Positions 7,175 to 60,161 of a stretch of 64,000 bases of DNA are shown here, piece after piece. Within the stretch, counting starts at the first letter, position 1. Each line of letters begins with the position of its first letter. Origin of the DNA: Cokeromyces recurvatus (lineage: Eukaryota > Mucoromycota > Mucoromycetes > Mucorales > Mucoraceae). The DNA lies in assembly GCF_025118155.1 (NCBI RefSeq), contig NW_026251418.1, forward strand, positions 248,001 to 312,000, given 5' to 3'. Position numbers and translations under genes: made by a program. Below the pieces are notes generated by a model, which was not told where the DNA came from, ran no database searches, and worked only from the letters and a program-made list of their open reading frames with translations.

Positions 7175-8157
7175 TAGCTCCCACCATCCTAATCTTGTTC
7201 CAATCATGTTGGGACTGGTCTTATACACCACTATCATGGCGAGTGGCACAGGTAATTTCTATCCACACAAAAAACAGTCCAACAGATCCAGCCAAAATTT
7301 GACCGATTAGTCTAACATCTACTTTTAGAAAGTTGTTTGAAAAATACAGATATCATGAACTCACTTACACTAGCCCTCTATTAGACACAACACAAGGAGG
7401 TTTTCGTGAAGTTTGTAGCTCTCCTGACCAGGTCTTATGCCTCACAGAACTCTGTCATATTCTACGTCAATACCATCACTTCAAACCGACGCTAATTTTT
7501 CTTGATATTAAATCGGCATACGATACAGTAGATCGATCTCACAAATGGCAGGAACTGCAACCGTTCGTACAACTCGCAGTGCTTGGTATACCTAGTGGTA
7601 TACCTCGTTCATGTCCCTACCATCCTTCTCAAACGTTCAGTCATACTTATTCTATTGAGTGTCTACATATGCACCATCGACTCCAAATTCCAAGAACGGT
7701 CACAGACCCACTCTTCTTCCTGCTAAAACACTCACAGGATGTGACTCCTCGTACAATATGTTGGCCAGCTATTTGTATCACTCTACATTAAATGGATTAC
7801 CTCTTTCATGAAAAGCTACCTCCAGATCCTCCCTCAGAACCCGGTGCACTACTGGTGAAATGGTTACTCAACTAACAGTGCTAATATCCTTGTACTGTCT
7901 CTGAATTTTATCTTACTGATCTTTTTTTTTTTTTTTCCAATTACTTTGTTCCCCTTCAACTCATTATATTTATTTTATATTTTACACATATACTTTTATC
8001 CTTTTCCCTTTTGTCTCATAAGAGGTTTTTTCTTACTTATATACTATTAGAACTGGTTAAAGCAATACAGCAGATGAAAAATGCTAGGTACTCATTTGGT
8101 CAAAAAAAAAAAAAAAAAAAAATAAAATAAAATAAAAAAAAAATAATAATAATTCCA
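7175..8157 (+). pseudogene. LINE relic A: 5'-truncated, internally deleted reverse transcriptase
   Basis: In succession the frames show SWRVAQV, NSPTDPAKI-stop-PISLTSTFRKLFEK, QGGFRE..SSPDQVLCL and FLDIKSAYDTVDR. These are the opening motifs of a non-LTR reverse transcriptase. The sequence then jumps to the C-terminal segment (ECLHMHHRLQIP, then WPAICITLH), so the palm with the YADD box is deleted. A 3' hairpin (CCTTTT at 8007-8012 against AAGAGG at 8020-8025) precedes a terminal A-rich tract at about 8102-8150. There are several frame breaks. It inserted immediately downstream of repeat R1. Confidence 0.8.
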
Positions 8158-11789: not shown

Positions 11790-14538
11790 TTATAAATTTT
11801 GAATGAATTTTAAACCACTTAAAACTTGATCAAATCTATAAGCAAAATTATACAGTAAGTAAAATGCTTATTTTTTGTATATAAATACATATATAATTAA
11901 ATATAATTTACCTAGACATTCTTGCTCTTGCTTGATCAGACTCAGCTCTCACTAGAGCTGTTAACTCATCCCAGTCTTCCTTAAGATGATCATATTTTGC
12001 CTGCCAGTCTTCTTTTGATTTAACTTCAGTATCTAATTTTGTTCTTATTTCTATTAATTCAGCTTCTCGAGAAGCATTTTCTTCTTGTAATTTCTTTTCA
12101 TTTTCTTGACTGATTCGTAATGCCTCTTTTAGTTTTTCTATTTCTTCATTTTGTATTGAGAGAGTTTCCTCATATTCCTTATTTCCAGACTCTAACTGGC
12201 TGATTTTATCGTCTTGAGAATTTACTTTGTTCCCTAATTCTTCCAAATTATGTAAACTTTTATCGATTTCTGACTGTAGTAGCGCAAGGTTTTTCTCTGA
12301 TATTCCTTTTTCTTCTTGCACAGCTTCTAGCTGACTATGTAAAGTCTGAATTTCTTCTTTTAATTGTTGTAACTCAACTGAAAGACGTTCTTGAACCAAC
12401 TTAGATGTATCAATTTGGGTATTAAGCTCTTCAATATCTGCTTCCTGGGAATCTAATGTCTTTTGTTGTTCTTCCATCTGCTGTGTCTTCTCACGTATTT
12501 CTAATTCTAGTTCTTCTATTCGTTCTTCCGCCACTGTAAACTTATTAAGCAAGCTTTCCTTCGTTTCTTCCAACTCCTGAATGATGTTCTGCTCTGTCAT
12601 GATAAGTTCCTTAAAATCAACGTGATCTCCTTCCAATTGCTGATTACGTGCCATCAATTCGGAAATTATATCATGCTGTTCTTTAATCTCAGATTCTAGC
12701 GCAGTAATCCTTTGTTCCTTTTCACGCAACTGACTGTCAACACGGTAAGCTGCATTCAAAGGCTTGAGTTTAGCATAAATCCTCCACCATGGCCATTCCT
12801 TTAAGGTGATATAGATACGTGCATTACGTTGTATGATACGAATTGCATCTGTTTGACGAGAGAACCTTGTTTTATATTGGCGAGCAATACGACCTCGACA
12901 CATGGCTTGGAACCGGGTGATAAAGGCACTTAGCTTATTGTCACACAGTTCTTCTAAAGAAGCAAGGACAGTTGCCTTGAAGAAGATCTTTGTAGTACCA
13001 ATTTGATATTTATCACTTTCCAAATTCATTTGCTTTACCAACATTTGGCAAGCAGTTTTGCCATCAATAAATGCATTGCGATCTAATAATTCAGGACAGA
13101 GCATTTTATATCTTTTTCTGAACTCATCAAAGGAAAGACGATTAGGGAAACCCTTTCGACAGATACGGATACCTTCTAAAACACCATTACATCTTAGTTG
13201 ATCTAAAACAAGCTTGGTCTGAATTTCTCCAGGATACTTTTTGCTGTTGGGTAGGATACAACGAACAAAGTGTGGATGTGTCATGTGCAAAGTATTCATT
13301 AATGAAAGCAATTGTTGCTTATGACGTTGACCAACAGTTCTAAAGGAGCCGCTCCCTTTCCTAAATTTGAGCAAAGATGTAAACGAAGTAGTAGCATTAG
13401 AGGTGGTTGAAGCGGTAGAGTCTACTCTTCCATTTATGACAGATGACTTATCATCTTGATCTGCTAAATAATCTTCAAATAAATCAGCTACATGCTTATG
13501 ATTAGAACGAGCCAATAAGCGTGTAATATCTTCATTTAAAGGATCCTTATTTTTCTCAATCCATCCGTCTACAGAATATTCTACATCACCAGCATAGTGT
13601 TTAAGAATAAACCCATCTTTGAATCGTGTACTTCTGTATTTAGCGTCTGGATTTTCTTTATCACAGAACCTGTTCAGTTTCTCCAAGAAACGTTGATCGC
13701 TTCCTCTGGGTGCCACACATTCTTCTTCTAAACATGATAGAATACCAACAGGCTTAAAACAGAAAGAATAAAAGTAAGGTTAGTATTGCAATAGTAAATT
13801 TGTATATTTATGTATATGTATATGTGTATGTGTATGTGCATGTGTATGTATAAATATATATATGTATATTACATTTGATTTTTCAATAAGATCAATCGTT
13901 GGTTGAAGATCTTTTCCAAAATCAATATAATCCCAACTAATTTTTTCCTTTTGGTATTCTTCCTGTTCCAATTCAAACATATTTTGGTTAAAGAATTGTT
14001 GTAATTTTTCATTGGTATAATTGATACAAAGCTGTTCAAAGCTATTTGACTAGAAATATATACATATTATTAATTCATAAATTATTCCTCCACCTTTTTT
14101 TTTTTTTTCTTTTTTTAATATACCTCGAAAATCTCAAAGCCTGCAATATCCAAAACACCAATAAAACCTAGTAAATCTTTTGATTTTTGACTATCAATGG
14201 CTTTATTGATTTTTTCTACCAGATAAGCAAAATTTCTTTCATAAAGTGTCTTTGCAAGTGCATCAATACTGGCAATCACTTGAGCAGAAGATTTGGCTTG
14301 TGTAACCCAATCTCGACCCGCCTTTATACGAGGTGCTAATAAACTCTTTTTGAATTCCTCTGCCGAGATACCCAACAAATGGCAAACACGTTCAACGGCA
14401 GCAAAATCACGAATATCAGCACGATCACGATAATCAATCACAGAGATATTTCCCAAGTGTAGAATAGAAGCTACAATTCTGAATAAGTCTAATTTTTCCT
14501 TTTCCGTTAAGCCCATAATATCTAATGATTTCTAATAT

Positions 14539-16567: not shown

Positions 16568-17804
16568 TTATTTTAAATTTAAAAGTAAGACTTCCTCATC
16601 TATACCTGTACGTAATTCAACTGGCATAGAAAGCGCACTATGTTGTCTTAATTTCACATTAGCTTCCTCAAACACTTTAGCCGTCATTTGATCCATGCCA
16701 TAGGATAAACTATAAACAACTTCTTTCACTCCTTGTTGAATAATCTTAATAGCACATCCCAAACAGGGACACGTATTACAATAAAGAATAACACCATTAT
16801 CTAATGCCACATTACTTCCACGACCTGCCTCTAACAATGCATTCTCTTCTGCATGCATACATAAACATCGATCTAATCCAGTTCCACAGGGTGCTCCTTC
16901 ATTACATCGTCCACAACCTCCCTCGTTACAGTTACGCAATCCACGAGGTGTGCCATTATATCCCGTTGCAATCACTCTAGAATCTTTTACAAGAATACAT
17001 CCTACGCGACGTTTCATGCAATTCGATCTACGGGCTGCTAAATCGGATAATTGCATAAAATAAGTATCCCATGAGGGACGAAGACGTTCTTTATCTGTCA
17101 AATTGCGTCGCTTCAATTCTTTATATAAACTACTTTTATCCGAGTATATATTTGTGATGACTAAATCAGATGCAATCATAATGTTATGAAGCGGTGTTAT
17201 AGTGTTAATTTCATGTTGATCTTTTTCTGAGATGTTGTACAAGTCGCGATCATCTTTTATTAAGAATGTCTCTAAATCAGCAGGTGGTCTGTCTTCAATT
17301 TGACATCTTTTATTGTATATTGAACTATAATGTCATTATATGTCCTAACATACTTTTGTGTAATCAACATTTTTACCTTTCAATCCAACGTTTATATCTT
17401 AATGTAACAGGTGCTTCAACGGATATTAATAGAAAAAAAGGTCGTTTTCTAGAATTAATATAGTTTTCAAGAAAGAAAGAAAAATAAGCAAAATTCAAGA
17501 AAAGACATGAAGAGAGAGAGAGAAAGAAAGAAAAAAAAGTAAATTCAATAGAATCTTACTTTAGAGTCCAAAGCTCTCTACTATCAACATCACAAGTGAC
17601 AAAGTCTTCTTGCCAACGTTCCGTGACATAACGTTGCATCTTATTGACATTTTCAAACTGAATGGCATTTGAGTAGAGGTGTTCGCGTCCAGCAGTATTT
17701 GTAAAAGAAGATAAAGTCAACAGTTGAAAGTGGTGTTGCTCTACAAGATATTGAGCAATGGTATGTTTACCGCTACTTTGTGATCCTGTAATGCCAATAA
17801 ACAT
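16568..17804 (-). CDS. DCD1: Deoxycytidylate (dCMP) deaminase
   Basis: Three exons (17560-17804, 17377-17448, 16568-17306) encode 351 residues. The N-terminus looks like a P-loop kinase fold (GITGSQSSGKH at residues 4-14), as in fungal Dcd1 proteins, where this domain precedes the deaminase. The catalytic part starts at RPSWDTYFM and carries the zinc/deaminase motifs CMHAEENAL (about 254-262) and CNTCPCLGC (about 281-289). A Cys-rich insertion NCNEGGCGRCNEGAPC lies between, also typical. The enzyme converts dCMP to dUMP for thymidylate synthesis and is usually regulated allosterically by dCTP and dTTP. It is divergent from TAF12 (about 500 bp apart). Splice phases are consistent throughout, so confidence is high. 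Confidence 0.95.
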
Positions 17805-24395: not shown

Positions 24396-27300
24396 ATGGA
24401 AGTCAGCATTTTCTCACCAGGTTTAGTTAAAGGGTTAACAGATAAAATATATGACAGAAGGAAAGCGGCTGCTTTAGAAATTGAAAGGTAGCAACATTTA
24501 CTTTTATAATTCTGTGTATGTGTGTGTGTGTGTGTGTGGATGGGAAGGAAGAAGGAAGGAAAAAAAAACATTAACTGAATCTTATTATTCTTTTATTAGA
24601 CTTGTACGAGAAAATGAAGATTCTAAAGAAAGAATTACACAAATTGTAGATGCACTTGTTCAAGAATTTGTTTATTCTAATAATCCATATGCTCGTTATG
24701 GTGGTTTAATAGGCTTAGCAGCAACCTCAATTGCATTAGGATCTGTAAAAGAAAAAAAAACAAAACAAAAATAAATCAATATATACTTATTATTCTTTAT
24801 CATTAGGGGGTATCTGAATATTTGAACATGATCGTCCCACCCATTTTATCATGCTTTAGCAATCAAGACCAGAAAGTAAGATACTATGCCTGTGAAAGTA
24901 TGTACAATATTGCCAAAGTAGCTAAAGGTGAAGTTTTAAGATATTTCAATAGTATTTTTGATGCCTTATGCAAGGTAAGTTTTTTTTTTTCTTTATACAC
25001 CATTTTCAATAAGAGCTTTTTACTCATTTTTTTTTTGTCGTGGGGGAGGGGAGAATAGTTGTCTGCTGATTCTGAAATTAGTGTAAAGAATGGAGCAGAG
25101 CTACTTGATCGACTTATAAAAGATATTGTTTCAGAACTATCAACAACTTACGTCTCACCTTATAATGAACCTTTGAATACAGTAGAAGCTGGTGGTGAAG
25201 AACTGGATACGCCTTCTTCATTACCACGTAACACTGCCTTTTCATTACCTCGCTTTATTCCCCTTCTTAGTCAACGTATCTATGTACGTAATTCAAATGC
25301 TCGTCAATTCTTGGTATCTTGGATGTGTGTCTTGGATTCGATTCCTGATCTTGAATTAATATCCTTTTTACCAGAGTTCTTGGATGGATTAATTCGTTGT
25401 CTGAACGATGTGAGCGAAGATGTCAGGGTTGCAACAAGCGGATTACTACAGGAGTTTTTAAATGAAATTAAGGAAGCAGCAGCAGCTCGCGAATTACAAC
25501 TTCAACAGCAAGAAGAAAGGAAACGAAAAATGAAACAGGAAGAAGGGAGAGTCAAGGTAAAAGAAATGAAGGAAGAAGGGAATGATAAAGATGGAGAAGA
25601 AAAGGAAAGAAAGGAGCGAAAGGAAGAAGGAGATGAAGAGTTCAAGACAGAACGACAAGATGAAAAAGAAGAAGATGCTCTAATTGATTCAGAGAATGAT
25701 GGTCATGGGAAGGGAACATATGTGCCTGGCCAGGGTGTGATTGTTCAATATGGCAAGATTGTAGAAATATTAGTGCCTCATTTATCATCATCTGAAGAAG
25801 ATATTCAAAGAACAGCTTTATTATGGATTAATGAGTTTATAGAAATTACTAAAGATGTTATCATTCAATACACTCCTGAGATTATTAAAGCTGTCTTACC
25901 TTCACTTGCACACACTGTCACTGGTATTCGCAATATTGCATTAGAAACAAATCAGAATTTGCAAAAATTAGTATTAGAGACACCTATTCATGTCCCTGAG
26001 CCTATAACGAGTAAAAGTGATCCATCAGGAGGTACCCAAATTTTACAACAACAACAACAACAACAACAACAAAAGAAGAAATCATTGATGTTTAGTCGGG
26101 TTGATAATGACCGTGATCCATTTGATTATCAAACTACTGTGGCTAATTTACGTCTTCAATTTTTGAATCAACATGAAGAAACTCGCATAGCCAGTCTGGA
26201 TTGGCTCTTAATGTTACATAAAAAAGCGCCTAACAAAATTTTAGCGTCTGATGATGGAACATTCCCTGCACTTTTAAAAACATTGTCAGATTCATCAGAA
26301 GAAGTAGTGCGTAAGGATTTACAGTTACTAGCACAGATATCCTTCTATTCAGATCATAGTTACTTTCGTAGTTTTATCATGTCTCTTCTATCGTTGTTTA
26401 GCACAGACCGTCGTCTGTTGGAGACCCGAGGTAGTTTGATTATTCGTCAACTGTGTATGAGCCTTGATCCAGAGCGTATCTATTGTACAATCGCTGATAT
26501 CTTGGAGCAAGATGAGGATCTCGAATTTGCAAGTACTATGGTTCAAAATTTAAATATTATTTTGATTACTGCTTCTGAATTAACTGACTTACGCAAGAGG
26601 CTTCGAAATTTGGATTCAAGAGAGAATCAACGTTTGTTTAATACTCTATATCGATCCTGGTGTCATAATGCTGTTTCCACCTTTTCTTTATGTCTATTGT
26701 CTCAAGTTTATGAACATGCTGCTAATATGCTTCAAATCTTGTAACATTGCTTAATCGCTCATGATCAATATTATTGTAGATGTTAACTTTTTTTTTTTTT
26801 TTTTTTTTTCAGTGCCGAATTAGACATTACTGTCAATATGCTTATACAGATTGATAAGCTTGTACAATTACTAGAATCACCAGTATTTACATGTAATGTA
26901 TTTTTTTAAAGTGAGGTTATGTATTATATACATACATATAAATATACATGTATATATATTGAACTAAAGAAAAAAAAACAAATTATATATTTGTAGATCT
27001 TCGCCTTCAATTACTGGAGCCCGAAAAATACCCATATTTATTTAAATGCTTGTATGGAATATTGATGTTACTTCCTCAGTCCTCTGCTTTTTCAACCTTA
27101 CGAAATCGATTGAATAGTGTTTCATCACTTGGATTTCTTCATGTTTTACCTAAAAGGTATAAAAGACTAAATGAAGACTCTTTTGTATTTTCTTTACTCA
27201 CTTTTGTTTAGCCCCGTCACTTCTACCATATCCACTGATAAAAAGCAACTTAAAACAACTACATTTAATAGTAAAAATACAGAAGAAATCAATACGATTA

Positions 27301-37082: not shown

Positions 37083-37319
37083 CTTAAAAAAGACGTAAGA
37101 GAAGGGTTAATTTTGAAGCGGAAAAAAAAAAAGAGAATTTATTTTTTTTCTTTTTTAACAATATAATAAATGATGATATATTCTATAATTATGTATTGGC
37201 AGTAATAATATTCATTCTGAATGAATTATTGGTTCCTTCCTCTAAGTTTATTTTATTTTGTGGGCTGTGATTTTATATGACTACGATTAAACAGTTTTTA
37301 TTTTTACTATTTTTTATAA

Positions 37320-38845
37320 ATTAACCTATGAGCACATAATATCTTTGTTATATTAGATTGCCTAGGTCAGTTCAAATTATGTGAAAAAAAAGTATCTAAA
37401 AACCCTCTTACGGGGACAAGAGGTAAAAAAAAGGTGAAGGGAAGGAAGAAGAAGAGAAGGTGATAAAGAAAGGGGGGAAATATTGCTAACAAGTTTAAAG
37501 GGACAACCAGTTGAGTCATTTCCTGCCTGGGTCAAGAAGTGGAGGGAGACATAGTTTATCGTGTATTAAGTGATCCATTACCTGTAGAATGGTACACATC
37601 GCTGGCCAGCGATAGAGCCAGGCAGTAACATCCCGAGAATTTCGATACTTACGCTGAGGGAGATGATTTAAAAGAAAGGTAAAAAAGGGGATCTGCAATT
37701 GATCGTGGCAAGAATAAACATGTGTGCATGTACAAGCATTCAGTGGCGTATGACCGACTAAAAGTGTACTTAAGGATGATATGGGCAGGCTTTAGGTATT
37801 CCTCCGGGTAACCAACCAAGACGCCATCAAATAGTTCGACTATGCTCACTGTGTGTCGTGAGTAACCAGAGTATCGGATCAATAATCGAATTTTGGGGGG
37901 GGGGTAACAAGCGGAAAGCAAAACAGAACGTGCCCCGTCACGTAGCTGATGAAAACTCTCTTCAAGAAATTCTTGACAATGTTTCCAAAAGGAGTGTTGG
38001 CGACACAGAGTCTCCAGCATGGTGTTTGAATGAGTTTATACCATTGAATGTTAAAGGTGGAGGCTTGAAGCTCGGGAAGTAATTTAGCGAGCAAGGTATT
38101 ATCCGGTAAATCAATAGCACAGAAAACGAATTGGGCTTGAAGAATGGACACCCTAACCTTCATCGATGATTGGTTTACCATATGAAGCATCACATTTACT
38201 GATGATCGACTAGAGTCACCAAATATCCGTCTTATGCATATGCTTTGACAAGATCCCAGTTGTTGGATATCCTTTGCACTAAGTAGACTAATAGCTAGAC
38301 CATATTCGAGTTGTGGTCGGACTATCTGCGTGTAGAAGCGAGTAGCGAGTAAACGATCAAATCCCTTGAGGTTAACCCCAATAGATGCCATTTGGTTCAT
38401 TGTTTGTAGGGCTTTGTTAGTATTATTTTGTACGAGTTGCGCTATATCTAAGAATCCTCCTATCTTTGATGGGGATACCTAGATAAGAAAAACATTTTTT
38501 TTGGGTTGGAATGGGGTCACGATATAAAGTGTACGGTTGCTGATGATCAGAAGGATCAAGGATTACACGTTTACCAGGATTCTAGCGGTAGCCTAATAAA
38601 TTACTGTTTTCTTCACATAACAATAATAAAGAGCGTCACTTTTCAGGTGCCGTGATGAGGACAACATTGTCAGCATATAACAAGCAATTAAGCGATTGTA
38701 CAAATTGAAGTGGTTGATCACATATATTTGTTGAAATTGGTAATAGACATAGAATATCAGGAAGCTTGTTTATGTATATTAAGTACAAAAAATGGAGAAA
38801 GAACTGAGCCTTAAAGAACATCAGTTTTCAGGGATTCTAGGATTA
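37320..38845 (-). pseudogene. LINE relic B (reverse transcriptase palm to 3' end)
   Basis: Read on the minus strand from 38840: an RT palm piece FLYLIYINKLPDIL and LLYADNVVLIT (a YADN variant of the YADD box), then a thumb/connection segment (FDRLLATRFYTQIVRPQLEYGLA) and the C-terminal domain (ECLYMHTCLFLPRSIADPLF; WLYRWPAMCTILQVMDHLIH). Several frameshifts separate these blocks. The 3' end carries a hairpin (CCTCTT at 37404-37409 with AAGAGG at 37418-37423). The 5' side is cut at a transposon end (38846). It is a dead copy of the same family as relics A and C. Confidence 0.8.
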
Positions 38846-38900
38846 CAGTATTCACACTTCAAATTCGGACAATGTTCGATTTTTTTTTTTGGACGATAGC
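38846..38900 (+). mobile_element. Solo terminal end related to the Fanzor-element termini
   Basis: The sequence TA|CAGTATTCACACTTCAAA followed by TTCGGACAATGTTCG matches the two ends of the element at 47085-49749. The partner end was not found downstream by eye. It sits exactly where LINE relic B stops, so it is probably a fragment of a related transposon that inserted into the LINE. Confidence 0.6.
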
Positions 38901-42651: not shown

Positions 42652-44891
42652 ATGTATTCACCCCAAAGAACAAGTATTTTAAAAAGCCCTGCACGACAGT
42701 CTCCAATAAAAAGAAAAAGTCCTAGTGAAAGTCCAATCAACAATAGATATTATACTTCTAACACTTCACCTTGGCGATCATCACCAACAAAACGCAATGA
42801 AGATCCTTCAATGTCTCTTGAACACTATTTAGCTATGAAACAGTCAAGAAAAAGAATGAAACCAGCTGATGATTCACCTACAAGGCCATTGAATGGTATC
42901 AGAGGCAACTCGAACAACACTACACTGCCTTCTGTATATAATAATAGAAGATCAACTATACTCATAAATAATAGAAAGAGACCTAATCAAATAACTGCGA
43001 ATCGAGCCAAACCTAATCTTGGAATGACTAGTAGTCCAGTTACATTACCAAAGAAAGATGTTCGATCTTGTATAACCATTTGTAATCAGGCAGGAGGACA
43101 AGATTTAAAGATTCGTGTATGTGTTAGAAAACGACCATTAAATAAACATGAGATTAACATGAATGAGCAAGATATTGCACCATTAACAAATACTAGAACT
43201 ATTGAAATCCATGCGCCAAAGTATATATCTTATAGATGTATATACATTATAATATATTGTTATATAGACTTATTGTTTATTTATTTTAAAGACAAAAAGT
43301 AGATCTTACAAAGTATATTGAACAACATTCTTTTACATTTGATGACGTTTTTGATTGTAATACCTCAAATAGAACTGTAAGATAGATACACACATATTTA
43401 TATTTTTGCAGCTATTTTTTTTCTTTTGCATGCATATTGTGATACTAATTACATATTGAAAAAAAAAATAGATTTATCAACAAACAACTCGCCCTTTAGT
43501 AGAACATATGTTTAAAGGTGGAAAAGCAACTTGTTTTGCATAGTAAGGAATTATTATCTATCAATAGTATAGTGCGAGTTAAAAAAAATCATATACATAA
43601 TTATTATTTTATAGTGGACAAACAGGTTCTGGAAAGACATTTACTATGCTTAATCCTAAACATGGTCTTTACTTTCAAGCTATTACAGATATTTTTAAAC
43701 TTCTCAATAATCCACATTACAGCCATCTTCAAGCCTGGGTAGGCTACTATGAAATATACCAGGGACAACTATTTGACTTGCTTAATAGTCGGAAAAAGCT
43801 AGTTCCACGAGAGGATGGCAAGGGCAATATTATCATTTCAGGTTTAAAAGAATATCATATCCATTCATCCTCTGTCATGAAACAAGTTTTTGATTTTGGT
43901 AATCGAGAGCGTACAACATCAAAGACAGAAACAAATGAAGCGTCATCCAGATCGCATGCCATTTTACAAATTTTACTTAAACAAACTTCGAACCATGCTG
44001 TCTATGGTAAATTAAATTTTATTGATCTTGCAGGTAGTGAAAGAGGTACAGATCGTGGTAGTAATTCAGATACAAAGACGCGTATGGAAGGAGCAGAGAT
44101 CAATCGTAGTTTATTGGCCTTAAAAGAATGTATTCGTGCCTTAGATCAAGATAAACGGCATGCGCCCTTTAGAGGAAGTAAATTGACAATGGTATTAAGA
44201 GATTCCTTTATAGGCAATTCAAAGACATGTATGATTGCTACTATATCACCTAATCATTCAAATAGTGATCATACATTGAATACATTAAGATATGCTGACA
44301 GGTATGTTAGTTATATATGTATATATATATATGTGTGTGTGTGTGTGTACTGAATTAGTAATCATATTACTTTATATTTATAGAGTAAAAGAATTAAAAG
44401 GCGAATCTGATCCAAGGTTATTAAATACTACTACTACTACTACTAACAATGTACTTGAAGAATCATCCTTATTTCAAAAGGAACAAGATGATCCAATGCT
44501 ATTAGAACCAGAAATTACAATTTCTACTACTATAACAAATGATAACACAAGCCAGTCTACACCCACCGTTCATATACCCATCCATCATCTACAGCCGCCA
44601 CCAAAGCTCACAAAAAGGCATATTAATAATTTTATTCATTCCCACAAAATTCAGGTAGAAGCATTTGAAGCTTATATTAGAAGTTCAAATGAATTGATAG
44701 CTCAATTTGAAAGAGATTTTGAATATCTAACAAGACGAGATGACGAACGATCAAAACAACTTTTGAAAGAAAAATTCGAAAACTATCAACAAGAGTTATC
44801 CTATAAGGGATCTCATGTAGATTATTTTCTTCAAAATTTGAAAAGTAAGGTGAAAGCTGAACTTGTAGATGATGATGAAGAAGATCATTAA
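42652..44891 (+). CDS. Kinesin-13 (microtubule-depolymerising kinesin)
   Basis: Five exons (42652-43220, 43292-43376, 43472-43542, 43615-44301, 44384-44891) give 639 residues. The N-terminal ~145 residues are basic and Ser-Pro rich (many SP sites, plausible CDK targets). The motor starts at KIRVCVRKRPLNKHE and has P-loop GQTGSGKT (about 243-250), switch I NEASSRSHA and switch II DLAGSERG. KQKVDLTKY holds the KVD motif of the kinesin-13 loop 2, and HAPFRGSKLTMVLRDSF is another class hallmark. The C-terminal ~170 residues contain an acidic Ser/Thr linker and a coiled coil (VEAFEAYIRSSNELIAQFE). Class 13 motors depolymerise microtubule ends rather than walk. It is convergent with the uL24m gene. 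Strong call. Confidence 0.94.
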
Positions 44892-45839: not shown

Positions 45840-46739
45840 TTTGTTATTGTTGTGTGTGTGTGTGTTTTTTAGCGTTAATAAAAGGAAAAAGACACTGTTT
45901 GATACCAGGGCGGAGAGTGGGAAGGGGGTTTTGTTTTTTTATTACCCCTCACTGATAATAGTGACTCTTTTTTTCTACAGGCTATTTAAGCAATATTAAG
46001 ACAAAAAAAACTCTTTCTTAAAAATCAAAATAACCTATTACATAGAACATCCAAAAAGCTCTTTATCTCTAATGATTTATGCTGTTATTATTCCAATACA
46101 ACGTCTTTTCTGTAAACAGAATTCAAAGGAAATCATAGAATATTGAAGTATATCTTATACTATCATCTGTTGTCATATTTCAACTACTTTAGTTATTTTA
46201 GCTTGACTTGTTTTATTTTTTCCCAACTTTATTGTTGATGAAGGCGACTATTTATCGAGAAAATCTGATTAAAGTGTAATTAATGTTACCCCTTAAATAA
46301 TAGAGCAGAGTTTTATTCATTGTAGAATAATTAATATAAAGTGACAGCCAATACAGAAGAAAGCATTTATTGTCTAAAAAGTAAGGAAAATAATTACAAG
46401 ACAAAAAAAAAAAGGTAATAGTAGGTGTACTAGATTCTGCTTATTTGGATTGTAAAATAAGGTAACCTAATATCTGTTAATAAACTCTCTGACCATGCTT
46501 TTATAAAGCATTAAGAATTACAGTAAATTATATATCTTTTACATACAAAAGAACGTTGAACTAAAAGTTGGGTGGAAAATAGTTAAAGACTCTCTTAAGA
46601 TACGGTAGTTTGGAATCATGCAAAGATATCAATGGTTAAAGCATTATTTTTTCTTTAACCGTATGTAGACCCTTCTATAAGTTGTAAACTCTGCGATTAT
46701 TATTTTATTTATTTTTCATGACTGTAAGAATTTTATTTA
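45840..46739. other. Intergenic, nothing recognised
   Basis: AT-rich and without a supportable gene. The first ~150 bp, with a GT run at 45849-45865, lie upstream of the uL24m start and are its likely promoter. Confidence 0.4.
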
Positions 46740-47084
46740 AAACATTAAAAAATGACCAATGAGCACAAATCATTTATATATGCTGTTTTGCCCTGGTCAG
46801 ATCGCTATGGAAAAAAAAAGAAAAGAAAACCCCTTTTGGGATAAAAGGGGAAACGTTGAAGTGTATGTATAAGTGATGATAATTAACTATCAGAAAATCG
46901 TTGTTGTATTGAAAGATGATGATGATCAGAAGGTTCAGGGATTTGGGAGTGAGCTAGGTAGTGCATCTCAAGCAGAATTGTACATATAAAAGGCCAGCGT
47001 ATGAGCCAGACATCAATTGATTTTCTCACTTTCTTAGTAAGGAGTTTTGATGGTAATAGATTCAAGAGATGAAGGGTCTACATG
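46740..47084 (-). pseudogene. LINE relic C (C-terminus and 3' end)
   Basis: The minus strand reads LPSKLLTKKVRKSIDVW then RWPFICTILLEMHYLAH, matching WLYRWPAMCTILQVMDHL of relic B. The 3' UTR has the family hairpin (CCCCTTTT at 46830-46837 with AAAAGGGG at 46843-46850) and a TGCTCATTGGTCA end block near 46753. The 5' side is interrupted by the transposon whose end is at 47085. Confidence 0.75.
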
Positions 47085-47519
47085 CAGTATTAGCACTTTA
47101 AATTCGGATAACTGAAAAATATTTTCGGACTGGTTCAAAAAGGCTTTCAGGCCAATGAGAAAAAGTATTCAGACAACTGTAAAAAATGAATTCAAACAAT
47201 ATTAAAAGCATTCAGACCCTTAAGATACTAAACTATACATAGTTTTTTACCAAGGCATGTATCTAATCCCACTATTCATGTTGAGTATACCGACACACGG
47301 CATTTTGAACCAAAATTACAATATTGTATGCACTTGTACCTTTTTATCTATTTTTATGTTCAGCTTATTGGATCGAACGGAATAACTGGTGTCATAATTC
47401 TGATTTATTCTTAAAAATGTTGTTAATTACTTTTTTACCTCTTTATTATACAATTTTTTTTTGATATAAAAGTAAACTCTTTAAAAGCAATAACGGTCAA
47501 AACCTCTGTTTCTAGACTT

Positions 47520-48667
47520 CAGTGGAAGCCGGAATATATACCAAGGCTTAGACGCCTCGTGTCAACTACTAATACAATTGTCATTCACACTTTTGCGTTG
47601 ATGAAGTTCATTTTTACTAGTGAATTGCAGAAAGATGAATCTTTTAACCTTCAAAAATATGCTCAAAAGGATTTTTACATGCAGGTGTTTACGGTACTCG
47701 TACAACAAAGCAGATCCATTTCTCCAAAGAGCTCGAAAACAAAAGAGTTTAGAGAATTGTCTGTAAAATATGTGGAAGAGTACTGCAAGTTAAGTAGTTA
47801 CGTTCCTGTAGAATTGAAAAATTCACAGCAAATCGTGACGTACGAATGTGCCAAAATTAATACTGTGTACAAAAAAAAAAAGCCATTGTAGTACACTTTG
47901 GGAGTAGATTTCGTATGTTCATCAACCAAATCACAGGTCAAAAAGAGAGGATCAAAAGTAGAAGGCAAGAATTACTTAAGGGAAATCAGATCAAAGAAGA
48001 GGTAAACAGAATTATTTTCAATGAAATTACAGAGCCTCGTTAACGTCTGAAGCTTTCATTTGCTTCTGGCATAATCCAAAACTTGCCCACGGATATTTTG
48101 GACGATAAAACCGTCTCTCTTATTCAACAGTTATTTGATATCTACAACAATAATTATAAATTTCCGAAGGGAAGTATCTACTACGATTGCAAAGCAGACC
48201 TCTCAATCATTTAAAGGCATACTAGAAGATTGCAAACTTGTACGAACAGACAGGAAACAAGTCGTTCATGTGCTTTCCTTTGAGAGGAACTTATATTCCC
48301 TCTTATATGATGATCGATACCATGATCCTGAGCAACCATATTGTAAATCCCAGTCAGCGATCCAACCTAGACAAAAAAACTCACTTGGTCCAAAGTAGTC
48401 ATTGTATCATGCAAAGCTCTGAAGGATCAAGGCCAATCAAAGTCAAAGCAGTTTCGAGGCATGATTCAGACTGATGGTATAGGAGTTTCTGTTCTCAAAC
48501 AGAATAAAGAATCATCCAGAGGAGGTAATAGGGGCGTACGCATACAAGATGACGAGGCTTTCCAATACATATGCATATTGTCAACAAAAGATCTTTAGGA
48601 CACCACCAACAAGTGCGTCTTTATAGATCCTGGACGCCGTGACTTGTTGTACTGTATGCACGAGAGA

Positions 48668-48716
<49 letters not shown>

Positions 48717-49551
48717 AACTACGACATATATCGGCATACCAGTAATCAAAAAGCCAAGGAAACCAAATCGAGGAAGTTTATTAAACTAAGACAAACCACA
48801 AGGCCTGGAGAAGTAAAGTAATGCGAAGCAGATCTTTCACAGTATGCAGCTTCGACTGTCAACGTCCTTCAGTTTTCTGAATACCTGAAGGTCAAGGGAA
48901 AAGCTCATAATACATTAGCATCTTATTATTCAAATGAAGACAATACAGGGCGCGAACATGGCTTACTTCCCTTCAGAAAGATGAAACTCTCTTCAATTAT
49001 CAACAAACAGCAGTCCGACAGCCGACTTGCAGCAAAACTTAGAGAGAAATTTGGGAAGGATTCTGAACTTGTGGTGGGTGATTGGTCTGCTGCCAACAGC
49101 AAGTTCCACGAACCGATCAGAGGCAAGGACATGCGAAGGATGTTGAAAAAGCATAGTTTTTTAGTATATCTGATTGATGAATACAGTACTTCTTCCTTTT
49201 GTCTCAATTGCAACGATGGAAAACTGGGAAAGTTATTGCAAATACTTAAATCACGGCCATTCAGAAGAACCACTAGACCAAAAGTCATATGTCATGAACT
49301 CTTAAGGTAAAACCTCAGCATTCTAAAATGCAGACAGCTCTTTTAGTAACCTCTTTTTGTTCAATAATAGATGTACAAATAAAAAATGCTTGGAGTCCAA
49401 CAGACAATGGTGGAATAGAGACTTGGTGGCAGTGCTAAATTTTAGGGATGTCATGAACAGCCACAGACAAGCACTTGGCCGTCCTTCCAGGTTTTCAAGA
49501 CATATCTTGAAACGTCCTTCTACAAGCAATGATGACTCATCGAAAAAGTAA
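47520..49551 (+). pseudogene. Fanzor (eukaryotic TnpB-like RNA-guided nuclease) relic
   Basis: Blocks in order: PRLRRLVSTTNTIVIHTFAL (about 47541), MCFPLRGTYIPSYMMIDT (about 48267), FRGMIQTDGIGVSVLKQN (about 48454), the RuvC-I strand FIDPGRRDLLY (Asp codon at 48626), GDWSAANSKF and IDEYSTSSFCLNC (about 49079 and 49172), then after an intron (49307-49370) CTNKKC and the RuvC-III WNRD (Asp codon at 49420). Two Cys pairs (CLNC, CTNKKC) form the zinc ribbon typical of TnpB and Fanzor. All key acidic residues remain. The gene is broken by a shift at the A-tract near 47870, TAA at 48041 and 48212, at least two further shifts, TAG at 48596, a long A-tract at about 48670-48710 with a shift, and TAA at 48819. 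It cannot make a full protein as it stands. Confidence 0.85.
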
Positions 49552-49749
49552 ATCCGCTTTATGCCATTCTAATAATGGCAATATTTTTGCCTAAAGAGAT
49601 GGGTATTGATAGAGTAAACCATGATACAGATAAAATTATATTCAACGCTCTTTTTTCCATCTGAAAAATCATGAACCTTTTGTCCGAAACTCCTTTTTTG
49701 TTTGTCCGAAAAAATACTAACATTGTCTGAGTTTAAAGTGTGAAAGCTG
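49552..49749 (+). ncRNA. Candidate omega-RNA region of the Fanzor element (position only)
   Basis: In TnpB and Fanzor loci the guide (omega) RNA is made from the stretch between the nuclease stop codon and the element end. Here that is 198 bp holding inverted copies of the TTCGGAC word (GTCCGAAAC near 49681, GTCCGAAAA near 49701). No fold was computed. With a dead nuclease gene the RNA may be non-functional. This is an inference from location only. Confidence 0.25.
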
Positions 49750-50101
49750 TAGACTTGGATAGTGGCTATTGATGAACTTCGTATATCAAGGATAATATGG
49801 ATACACATATTTACAATGACTCGAGCTGAATCGACACACCTTTATTTCTATTGAAATTATGAAGAGTATCCGTCTATACAAAAATGAATAACTTTGTAGG
49901 AATTTTTTTTTTATTTTACTTTCGTAGCATTCAAATTCATACAAGTTGTAGAAAATGACATCTAGTCTAAAAATATTTTGTCTGATTTTCAATTTTAATA
50001 AAATGGAGATTTCTGCACGATACAAACAGCTTTATAACGATATCTTGGCCTTTTTTATTATTTTTATTATTATTATTAATTTTATTTTTATTTATAATAA
50101 G
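49750..50101. promoter_or_regulatory. Upstream region of ABP1
   Basis: 352 bp from the transposon's right flank to the ABP1 ATG, with T-rich and ATT-repeat sequence just before the start. The transposon therefore sits within about 350 bp of a housekeeping start codon. Confidence 0.4.
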
Positions 50102-58510: not shown

Positions 58511-60161
58511 TTGTGTATCCATAATAATAAATAAAGAATAATGAAAATGTCTGTCGCGAAGAATTTGAAAAAGCTGGTCAGATTTTTGAATAAATTTGCC
58601 AACTTTTTTGAAACTCGATTAGTTATTTGTTTGAAATTCATTTGGATCTTTTTTTTTTTTTTTTTTGAAAATATTGTACCTTAAATAATGTTAAGGGAAA
58701 GTTATAGAGGGACCTTATTCAAGCAATTGCTAAGCTGGTTTACAGAATGTTGAATAATATTTTGAAGACGCTCAACAGGTACTTCTTCACTAGCCGCAAT
58801 AATTCTTGAAGTAAGCGTTTCAACATCATTAAGTTTACTTCGCTTTACTTTTCCCTTAAGAATGGACCAAAATTGTTCTATTGGGTTGAGTTCGGGCGAG
58901 TAGGGAGGAAGGTATAATGGCTTAGAGCCCCGACTTACAATTACAGGGTCAATCATAGCAGGAATATGAATTGGAGCATTGTCCACAACAATAAAAAATC
59001 CTTTCATTTCTGGGGACTCATCCATAATATCCATAGTATCGTTAAGAAACAAAAGATAATGATCGCCAGTAGTGCCACTGGGAATAGTTAATTTATCTTC
59101 AGGAGCCTTTCTCTTTTTGGCCCCTACAACTTTCCTTCTCTTAACATTTCCAGATTTTCGCATACTCACATTGACGACACCATTAGCTGATATTGCACCA
59201 AGAACAGTATGTGAGGTAGCCTTGGTGGAAGGAGTTGTGGTAGTTGATTTTGTACCGTGCTGTGACCAACCATGACTACATCGCATATTAATATCAAACC
59301 CGGACTCATCAACAAATATACAATTGTCGAGATAATTGACGCCATTGCTGATCAATTTCTCAACCCACTCAGCACGAGCTTTAAGATTTTTATCTTTGTT
59401 TCTGGCAAGAGGGTGTCGGTTAATAAGTTTGATACTGAGATTACATTCTTCCTTCATAAACTCGGCTACTCTTGTTTTTTTTATTTGTAAGCCAGCAAAG
59501 TTGGCTGTCAAGCTTTCAACTGCGTCCTGGATTGTTGCAGTTGAGTCATCATCAAAAAAGCTGATCAGATAGACCTTATGAGCTTCGTTCAGTTGACTGA
59601 CTGGTCTGTTAGGATTCAGATTCGTCTTTTTGATAGGAATCTTCCTTTCCGGATCATCTTCGTAAGCCTTTTTCCATTTGCGCGCTGTGTTATAATTTAC
59701 ATTTGCGGCTATGGCTGCATCTTTTGGTTTCATGAGTTTTTCTTTCAAAAAATAAAAGTAACGTCTACGGTCTTCCATTGTATAAACGTTATACTCAAGA
59801 GGTCTTTCTTTCTTTGGACTAGCCTCTTTCATGACTGTATCGTCTGAACTGATCGTTTCAAATTGGAGATCCTTATTCTTAATGTATTTTCGTAGATCTG
59901 TTAATCTTTTCAAACGAAATGACTTCTCTTCAACATATGTTTTTGCTTGCTCGCCCTGTTCATCAATGAGATGACCAGCACCATCTTCATAAAAAATATT
60001 CATGCTCATTTGAAAAATAATCACGAAATAATGGTATAAAAAAAGTAACAAAATATACCTCAGATAAAATGGCCCAATTGAGTTTCAAAAAAGTGGGCAA
60101 ATTTATTCAAAAATTTGACCACCTTTTTCAAAAATTCGTCCAATTGACGGCGGACACACTG
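58511..60161 (-). mobile_element. Tc1/mariner-like transposon with long inverted repeats
   Basis: It is bounded by TA at 58509-58510 and 60162-60163. The right end (reverse complement) is CAGTGTGTCCGCC; the left is a diverged TTGTGTATCC. Long imperfect inverted repeats (left about 58511-58622, right about 60072-60161) share GAAAAAG.TGGTCA, ATTTTTGAATAAATTTGCC and ACTTTTTTGAAACTC. It holds one intact transposase gene. The intact frame suggests recent activity; the mismatched ends suggest age, so mobility is uncertain. Confidence 0.8.
58702..60009 (-). CDS. DDE superfamily transposase (IS630/Tc1-mariner-like)
   Basis: An intact 435-residue frame from ATG 60009 (MSMNIFYEDGAG); the frame is open further upstream but without a better start. 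A DNA-binding helix-turn-helix lies at about 95-130 (KPKDAAIAANVNYNTARKWK). The catalytic triad is visible as IFVDESGFD (first Asp), FFIVVDNAPIH (second Asp) and SPELNPIEQFWS (Glu), the DDE_3 pattern. A basic insertion (GNVKRRKVVGAKKRKAPE) sits between the first and second Asp. The enzyme would cut and paste the element at TA sites. It lies alone between two long inverted repeats. No introns. Strong family call; activity is not shown. Confidence 0.93.
   Translation of the reverse strand: MSMNIFYEDGAGHLIDEQGEQAKTYVEEKSFRLKRLTDLRKYIKNKDLQFETISSDDTVMKEASPKKERPLEYNVYTMEDRRRYFYFLKEKLMKPKDAAIAANVNYNTARKWKKAYEDDPERKIPIKKTNLNPNRPVSQLNEAHKVYLISFFDDDSTATIQDAVESLTANFAGLQIKKTRVAEFMKEECNLSIKLINRHPLARNKDKNLKARAEWVEKLISNGVNYLDNCIFVDESGFDINMRCSHGWSQHGTKSTTTTPSTKATSHTVLGAISANGVVNVSMRKSGNVKRRKVVGAKKRKAPEDKLTIPSGTTGDHYLLFLNDTMDIMDESPEMKGFFIVVDNAPIHIPAMIDPVIVSRGSKPLYLPPYSPELNPIEQFWSILKGKVKRSKLNDVETLTSRIIAASEEVPVERLQNIIQHSVNQLSNCLNKVPL

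Follow-up and report, generated by a model that had tools for sequence, protein, structure and literature searches.

Fanzor1 genes are known from Tc/mariner elements with and without a transposase and, in Mucorales, from other carriers (Bao and Jurka 2013, PMC3627910). In the Tc/mariner elements PUl-4, PUl-1 and PGv-1 described there, Fanzor1 is bounded by mariner-like inverted repeats with TA on their flanks, and a transposase may be present or absent. The inverted repeats of Spu-1 of Spizellomyces punctatus enclose one Fanzor gene, and no transposase was found inside them (Saito 2023, PMC10432273). Here we describe an element from Cokeromyces recurvatus (Mucorales), located in a stretch of 64,000 nucleotides (bases 248001-312000 of contig C26, assembly of 28.05 Mb) that is called the window below. 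The element occupies 47081-49749 (2.67 kb) between two TA dinucleotides and is very probably a dead, Fanzor1-bearing cut-and-paste DNA transposon of the Tc1/mariner type. It differs from PUl-4, PUl-1 and PGv-1 in its host and ends, in the presence of at least two Fanzor lineages on one end set and in having, in the copies seen, a divergent transposase remnant that is truncated; from Spu-1 it differs in that its sister elements contain a DDE_3 remnant. As Fanzor1 in Tc1/mariner elements and in Mucorales had already been published, the earlier note that drew attention to this locus overstated its interest: the element adds a mucoralean family to the existing Fanzor catalogue, and the kind has been known since 2013. 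No report of these Cokeromyces elements was found in the open-licence literature. The part deserving follow-up is the docking of long interspersed nuclear elements (LINEs) at the ends of the transposon.

Fanzor1 cargo

The signature motifs by which the earlier note had recognized a Fanzor stand where it claimed them (Table 1), and sequence comparison assigns these blocks to a Fanzor1 homologue. The four blocks are spread over three reading frames, and tblastn with open relatives from the same genome gave Fanzor matches over 47472-49566 in five pieces of 44-61% identity. That the copy is dead, as had been noted, is evident from its stops, its frame changes and a run of A in the coding region, which together with frame changes interrupts the middle segment; the 792-bp match C26:295903-296694 contains 10 stops, partly through a frame change within the match. 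Relatives with longer open frames were found in the same genome. The proposed internal intron was likewise recovered: it has GT-AG borders, is the one intron of the gene, lies near its 3' end and divides the zinc finger, and its position is that of the join in the public gene models P0001 and P0078.

Among solved structures, a 390-residue open stretch of the relative L043 matches Fanzor1 of Parasitella parasitica (9cf0, E = 3.4e-87) and of Spizellomyces punctatus (8gkh, E = 7.5e-34), and it has 112 protein-database homologues, of which those named to species come mostly from Mucorales and some from Umbelopsis and Coemansia. The zinc-ribbon profile PF07282 gave no match in the seven window pieces scanned and scored gene model P0001 at 18.4, below the cut-off of 26.3, so that the assignment to Fanzor1 rests on the homology to solved proteins; L062, which belongs to a different Fanzor lineage, scored 41.3. 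The Fanzor1 motif as printed in PMC3627910, D-X(125-275)-[TS][TS]XX-C4-X(5-50)-RD, is matched in its spacing by P0001 (D, 164 residues, TS, CPTC, CLNHQC, 8 residues, RD), and its blocks are also present in the window, split across frames.

The likeness to PpFz1 (Parasitella parasitica Fanzor1, PDB 9cf0-9cf3), which covers the middle of the protein, places the window family on the same Fanzor1 branch; unlike PpFz1, this family is without the FRI insertion of about 105 residues in RuvC (query residues 335-340 face residues 985-1090 of the chain). The FRI domain has been reported solely from Parasitella and Rhizopus, according to PMC11423790. Another Cokeromyces Fanzor (L055:4630-5412, + strand) has an FRI-like insertion and aligns with the 9cf0 chain as far as residue 1069, and Cokeromyces therefore seems to have this domain too.

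The second Fanzor lineage shows N-terminal CCHC-like motifs by eye (L061:1192-1491 and L062:1-946), the sole Pfam zinc-knuckle match being below cut-off. A conserved stretch past the usual Fanzor stop was considered as a signal of omega RNA and dropped, since it reads equally well as a conserved protein tail.

Element ends and carrier

The two ends of the window element align as inverted repeats with a score of 41, so the possibility that they are unrelated does not hold; one of 2000 approximate dinucleotide shuffles scored as high, and none of the 71-mers sampled at 37-base steps from the rest of the window reached this value. The ends had been described as TA-CAG and inverted. The inversion was upheld by the alignment, but the left boundary had to be moved from 47085 to 47081, because the sequence there reads TA-CATG-CAG: four extra bases (CATG) separate TA from CAG, whereas most other ends observed are TA-CAG or near it. 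The arrays of TTCRGAC words were borne out as local clusters (three in the left arm and two in the right arm, all oriented as expected) but not as an overall excess, the window containing 12 against a chance mean of 10.7. Scans for Rfam families and for tRNAs found no match in the window.

Elsewhere in the genome, the 27-base end pattern, with up to 3 mismatches allowed, had 56 matches (reversed control, 0), and the 72-base end query had at least 40 (the best 40 of 67 candidates); the merged set comprised 72 distinct ends. A right-type end was found 38-315 bp downstream of 12 of 70 PF07282 matches (within 1 kb; wrong-strand control, 0/70) and 289-633 bp downstream in 10 of 30 PpFz1-like loci, hand-merged from 64 matches (searched to 1.6 kb; wrong-strand control, 0/30). 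These data bear on the idea that no Fanzor-bearing unit exists and that Fanzor, LINE and inverted ends were each inserted independently, one nested in another. Repeats are abundant in the region and many copies have LINE pieces next to them, as such nesting would have it, yet a correctly oriented right-type end follows Fanzor by 38-633 bp at 22 loci (strand control, 0) and the same ends are found on two very different Fanzor lineages (L042-L047 versus L058, L061 and L062), which makes independent nesting a most improbable account. The occurrence of two divergent lineages on one end set suggests that nuclease cargo has been exchanged between carrier copies.

A C-terminal part of a DDE_3 (Tc1/mariner-type) transposase was detected in five copies of the same family (L042, L043, L044, L045 and L047), in each case upstream of Fanzor and on the opposite strand, that is, divergently oriented; half of this piece remains in L044 and L047. 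The longest, in L042, matches DDE_3 with 38.6 bits (cut-off 28.6, E = 1.2e-9), and the order at this locus is left end, transposase piece, Fanzor, right end. One might suppose that Fanzor is carried by an element outside the Tc1 group, MuDR-like or unclassified, that merely resembles Tc1/mariner at its ends. The failure to find an intact transposase between these ends would suit such a carrier, but the ends are TA-CAG, not 9-bp duplications, and the DDE_3 part occupies the same divergent position in all five sisters, so that we regard a non-Tc1 carrier as improbable. The suggestion of a Tc1/mariner-type carrier without its own DDE transposase is thus sustained by the TA-CAG ends elsewhere, by the remnant in the sisters and by its lack in the window copy, and because no transposase lies inside, the window element is called a non-autonomous carrier of this type and not a complete member. 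At least 184 DDE_3 matches were counted in the genome (150 of 403 candidates were scored and 150 of the 184 matches listed), making a helper transposase plausible; PF03184 had one match.

Several observations weigh against a Fanzor1-bearing Tc1/mariner-type transposon. A search with the joined flanks found no empty site for the window element, and the TA duplication is therefore one that we infer from the TA on both sides. The window copy gave no transposase match, nor was a complete transposase found between ends of this type. No right end stands inside 1 kb of 58 of the 70 PF07282 matches, which points to additional carriers or to decay of the ends, and 42 of the 72 ends have no listed Fanzor match nearby, a figure that includes at least one pair (C20, L061) which does contain a Fanzor by sequence. 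Among the matches listed, a DDE_3-type match lies within 6 kb of 7 of the 72 ends; five of these ends are the same-family copies, and the matches at the other two are 5.1 and 5.2 kb away.

If the Tc1/mariner-type reading is correct, the element would have owed its mobility to a Tc1/mariner-type transposase supplied in trans and acting on its ends. By analogy with published OMEGA work, an omega RNA from the right end may have guided the intact Fanzor to a matching target, most probably the donor site left empty, where its cut would have favoured retention of the transposon; the window copy would no longer perform this cutting.

The window also contains an open DDE_3 transposase of 460 residues (58705-60084, - strand) with its own, differing ends, one of which is TACAGTGTGTCCGCC.

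LINEs at the transposon ends

Tx1L, a target-specific LINE of Xenopus, is a comparable case of a non-LTR (long terminal repeat) retrotransposon inserting into a DNA transposon, its target being the DNA transposon Tx1D. In Cokeromyces, LINE fragments abut the outer edges of transposon ends and point outward, as seen for two LINEs of the window and at L043, L044, L045, L048, L051, L053 and L058. We think it likely that a group of LINEs targets the outer terminus of Fanzor-carrying Tc1/mariner-type repeats, at or next to the junction ACT/GTA, and that the first strand is primed from the flank; this proposed priming from the flanking side would explain their outward direction. The case rests on three target-site duplications and a test of position.

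The repeats were first noticed at L053 and L045, looking outward from the transposon ends. A scan in which the transposon ends were not used covered 27 sites resembling a LINE 3' end (T[TC]AA[TC]C followed by GTA) in the window, L001-L008 and L041-L062, and sought exact direct repeats up to 7 kb upstream, the first three bases (GTA) being fixed by the scan. Repeats longer than 10 nt were present at three sites, L045 (16 nt), L058 (14 nt) and L053 (13 nt); the other 24, the window's own LINEs included, had no such repeat. At L045 and L053 the repeat begins directly after AAAAACT, which is the transposon end, and at L058 it begins inside or at a shortened transposon end, after GAATTTGAA. At three loci, duplications of 13-16 nt therefore flank a LINE and begin at a transposon end. 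Exact repeats of at least 13 nt were found at 15 of 3000 other GTA sites of the same DNA, which corresponds to about 0.14 expected among 27. As GTA both ends the transposon and follows the LINE, the cut can be resolved to 3 bp at best.

For the test of position, 190 LINE places were used (the best 150 of 362 and the best 40 of 101 candidates). LINE pieces begin within 60 bp outside 8 of the 72 ends, all pointing outward, against 0.04 expected under random placement, a simple model given that the 190 places include parts of single LINEs. Up to 1200 bp outside the 72 ends, a LINE points outward at 19 ends and inward at one, and this inward-facing piece speaks against a full regularity of LINE direction. 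Seen from the LINEs, a listed Fanzor or transposon end lies within 2.5 kb on the 5' side in 18 of the best 40 of the 101 candidate copies and on the 3' side in 2, and in 21 nothing of the kind is listed within this distance on either side; the count of 18 is not clean, because the query touches the window element and at least 5 of the 18 are fused LINE-Fanzor units of common ancestry. The test was therefore repeated from the transposon side, with the 19 of 22 ends that have at least 665 bases outside, at loci chosen mostly by transposon similarity and in no case by LINE. Nine of these 19 ends have a LINE within 160 bp; all nine LINEs face outward, and the alignments place their starts at nine different points. 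Ordinary nesting of a transposon in a LINE, which was considered and rejected, predicts LINE sequence of the same direction on both flanks and hence one inward-facing piece, and is contradicted by the nine out of nine that face outward.

Any TA-CAGT transposon end may serve as the LINE target, or transposase or Fanzor may provide the break. Unlike that of Tx1L, the proposed Cokeromyces site is in a fungus and lies at the outer edge of the inverted repeats of Tc1/Fanzor elements, with duplications of 13-16 nt, and no report of LINEs targeting Tc1/mariner ends was found in the open-licence literature. If the LINE result is true, it would provide a natural retrotransposon that lands at a short site in the termini of a DNA transposon and would allow the source of the nick to be asked for, whether LINE endonuclease, transposase or Fanzor; transposons with RNA-guided nucleases would then be landing pads for retrotransposons.

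In L046, L050, L051, L052, L053 and L054, a LINE 3' part is joined straight to Fanzor, the left transposon end being absent. The left surroundings of the fused units L046/L051/L052 and L050/L053/L054 have no similarity to each other, and an internal Fanzor deletion is common to L052, L053 and L054. The 13-mer ATGTAGACCCTTC stands inverted around the LINE fragment of the left flank in the window (46663-46675, + strand, and 47071-47083, - strand), and a third LINE remnant of the window, with reverse transcriptase (RT) and C-terminal matches, lies at 7372-7821.

Table 1. Coordinates of the element, its Fanzor1 cargo and adjoining repeats in the window.
Feature	Position	Strand	Basis or remark
TA, left boundary, presumed target-site dinucleotide	47079..47080		sequence; TA-CAG ends elsewhere in genome
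Left terminal inverted repeat and part of TTCRGAC word array	47081..47150	+	CAG begins 47085; aligns with right end
Left arm	47085..47350	+	bases 14-264: single 89% identical copy elsewhere, C23:331000-331253
Fanzor1 N-terminal segment (FzN), broken	47472..47873	+	tblastn 57% to L043 segment, E 5.8e-47
Fanzor1 middle (FzM) with FIDPGRRD	47903-48730 and 48693-49106	+	tblastn 44% and 48%, E 1.7e-63 and 2.9e-34
FIDPGRRD	48620-48643	+	motif search
A run, 42 bp, inside coding region	48671..48712	+	sequence
Fanzor1 segment (FzC1): DEYSTS and first zinc pair CLNC	49110..49307	+	tblastn 58%, E 6.4e-19
IDEYSTSSFCLNC	49173-49211	+	motif search
Intron, GT...AG	49307..49370	+	GT at 49307, AG ends 49370
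Last exon (FzC2): CTNKKC and WNRD	49369..49566 (exon from 49371)	+	tblastn 61%, E 7.8e-22
CTNKKC	49372-49389	+	motif search; 3' of intron
WNRD	49411-49422	+	motif search; 3' of intron
Right terminal inverted repeat	49696..49749	-	86% to 72-bp end consensus; among 56 genome matches to 27-mer
TA, right boundary	49750..49751		sequence
LINE 3' fragment adjoining left end, 5' side towards transposon	46725..47079	-	LINE_E2 84%, E 1.6e-24
Second LINE (RT and C-terminal parts) adjoining lone transposon end	37284..38843	-	sequence match
Lone transposon end, same family	38844..38900	+	no Fanzor match adjoining

Genomic neighbourhood

The placing of the element in a housekeeping block fails for its immediate left flank, which is the LINE remnant listed in Table 1, but holds for the wider surroundings, where neighbouring frames contain Pfam domains. 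Five of the eight neighbouring open frames scanned have such a domain, consistent with a housekeeping block, and these include a myosin head, a cytidine deaminase, Vac14 and a kinesin motor (11911-13779, 16571-17332, 25059-26741 and 43601-44350).
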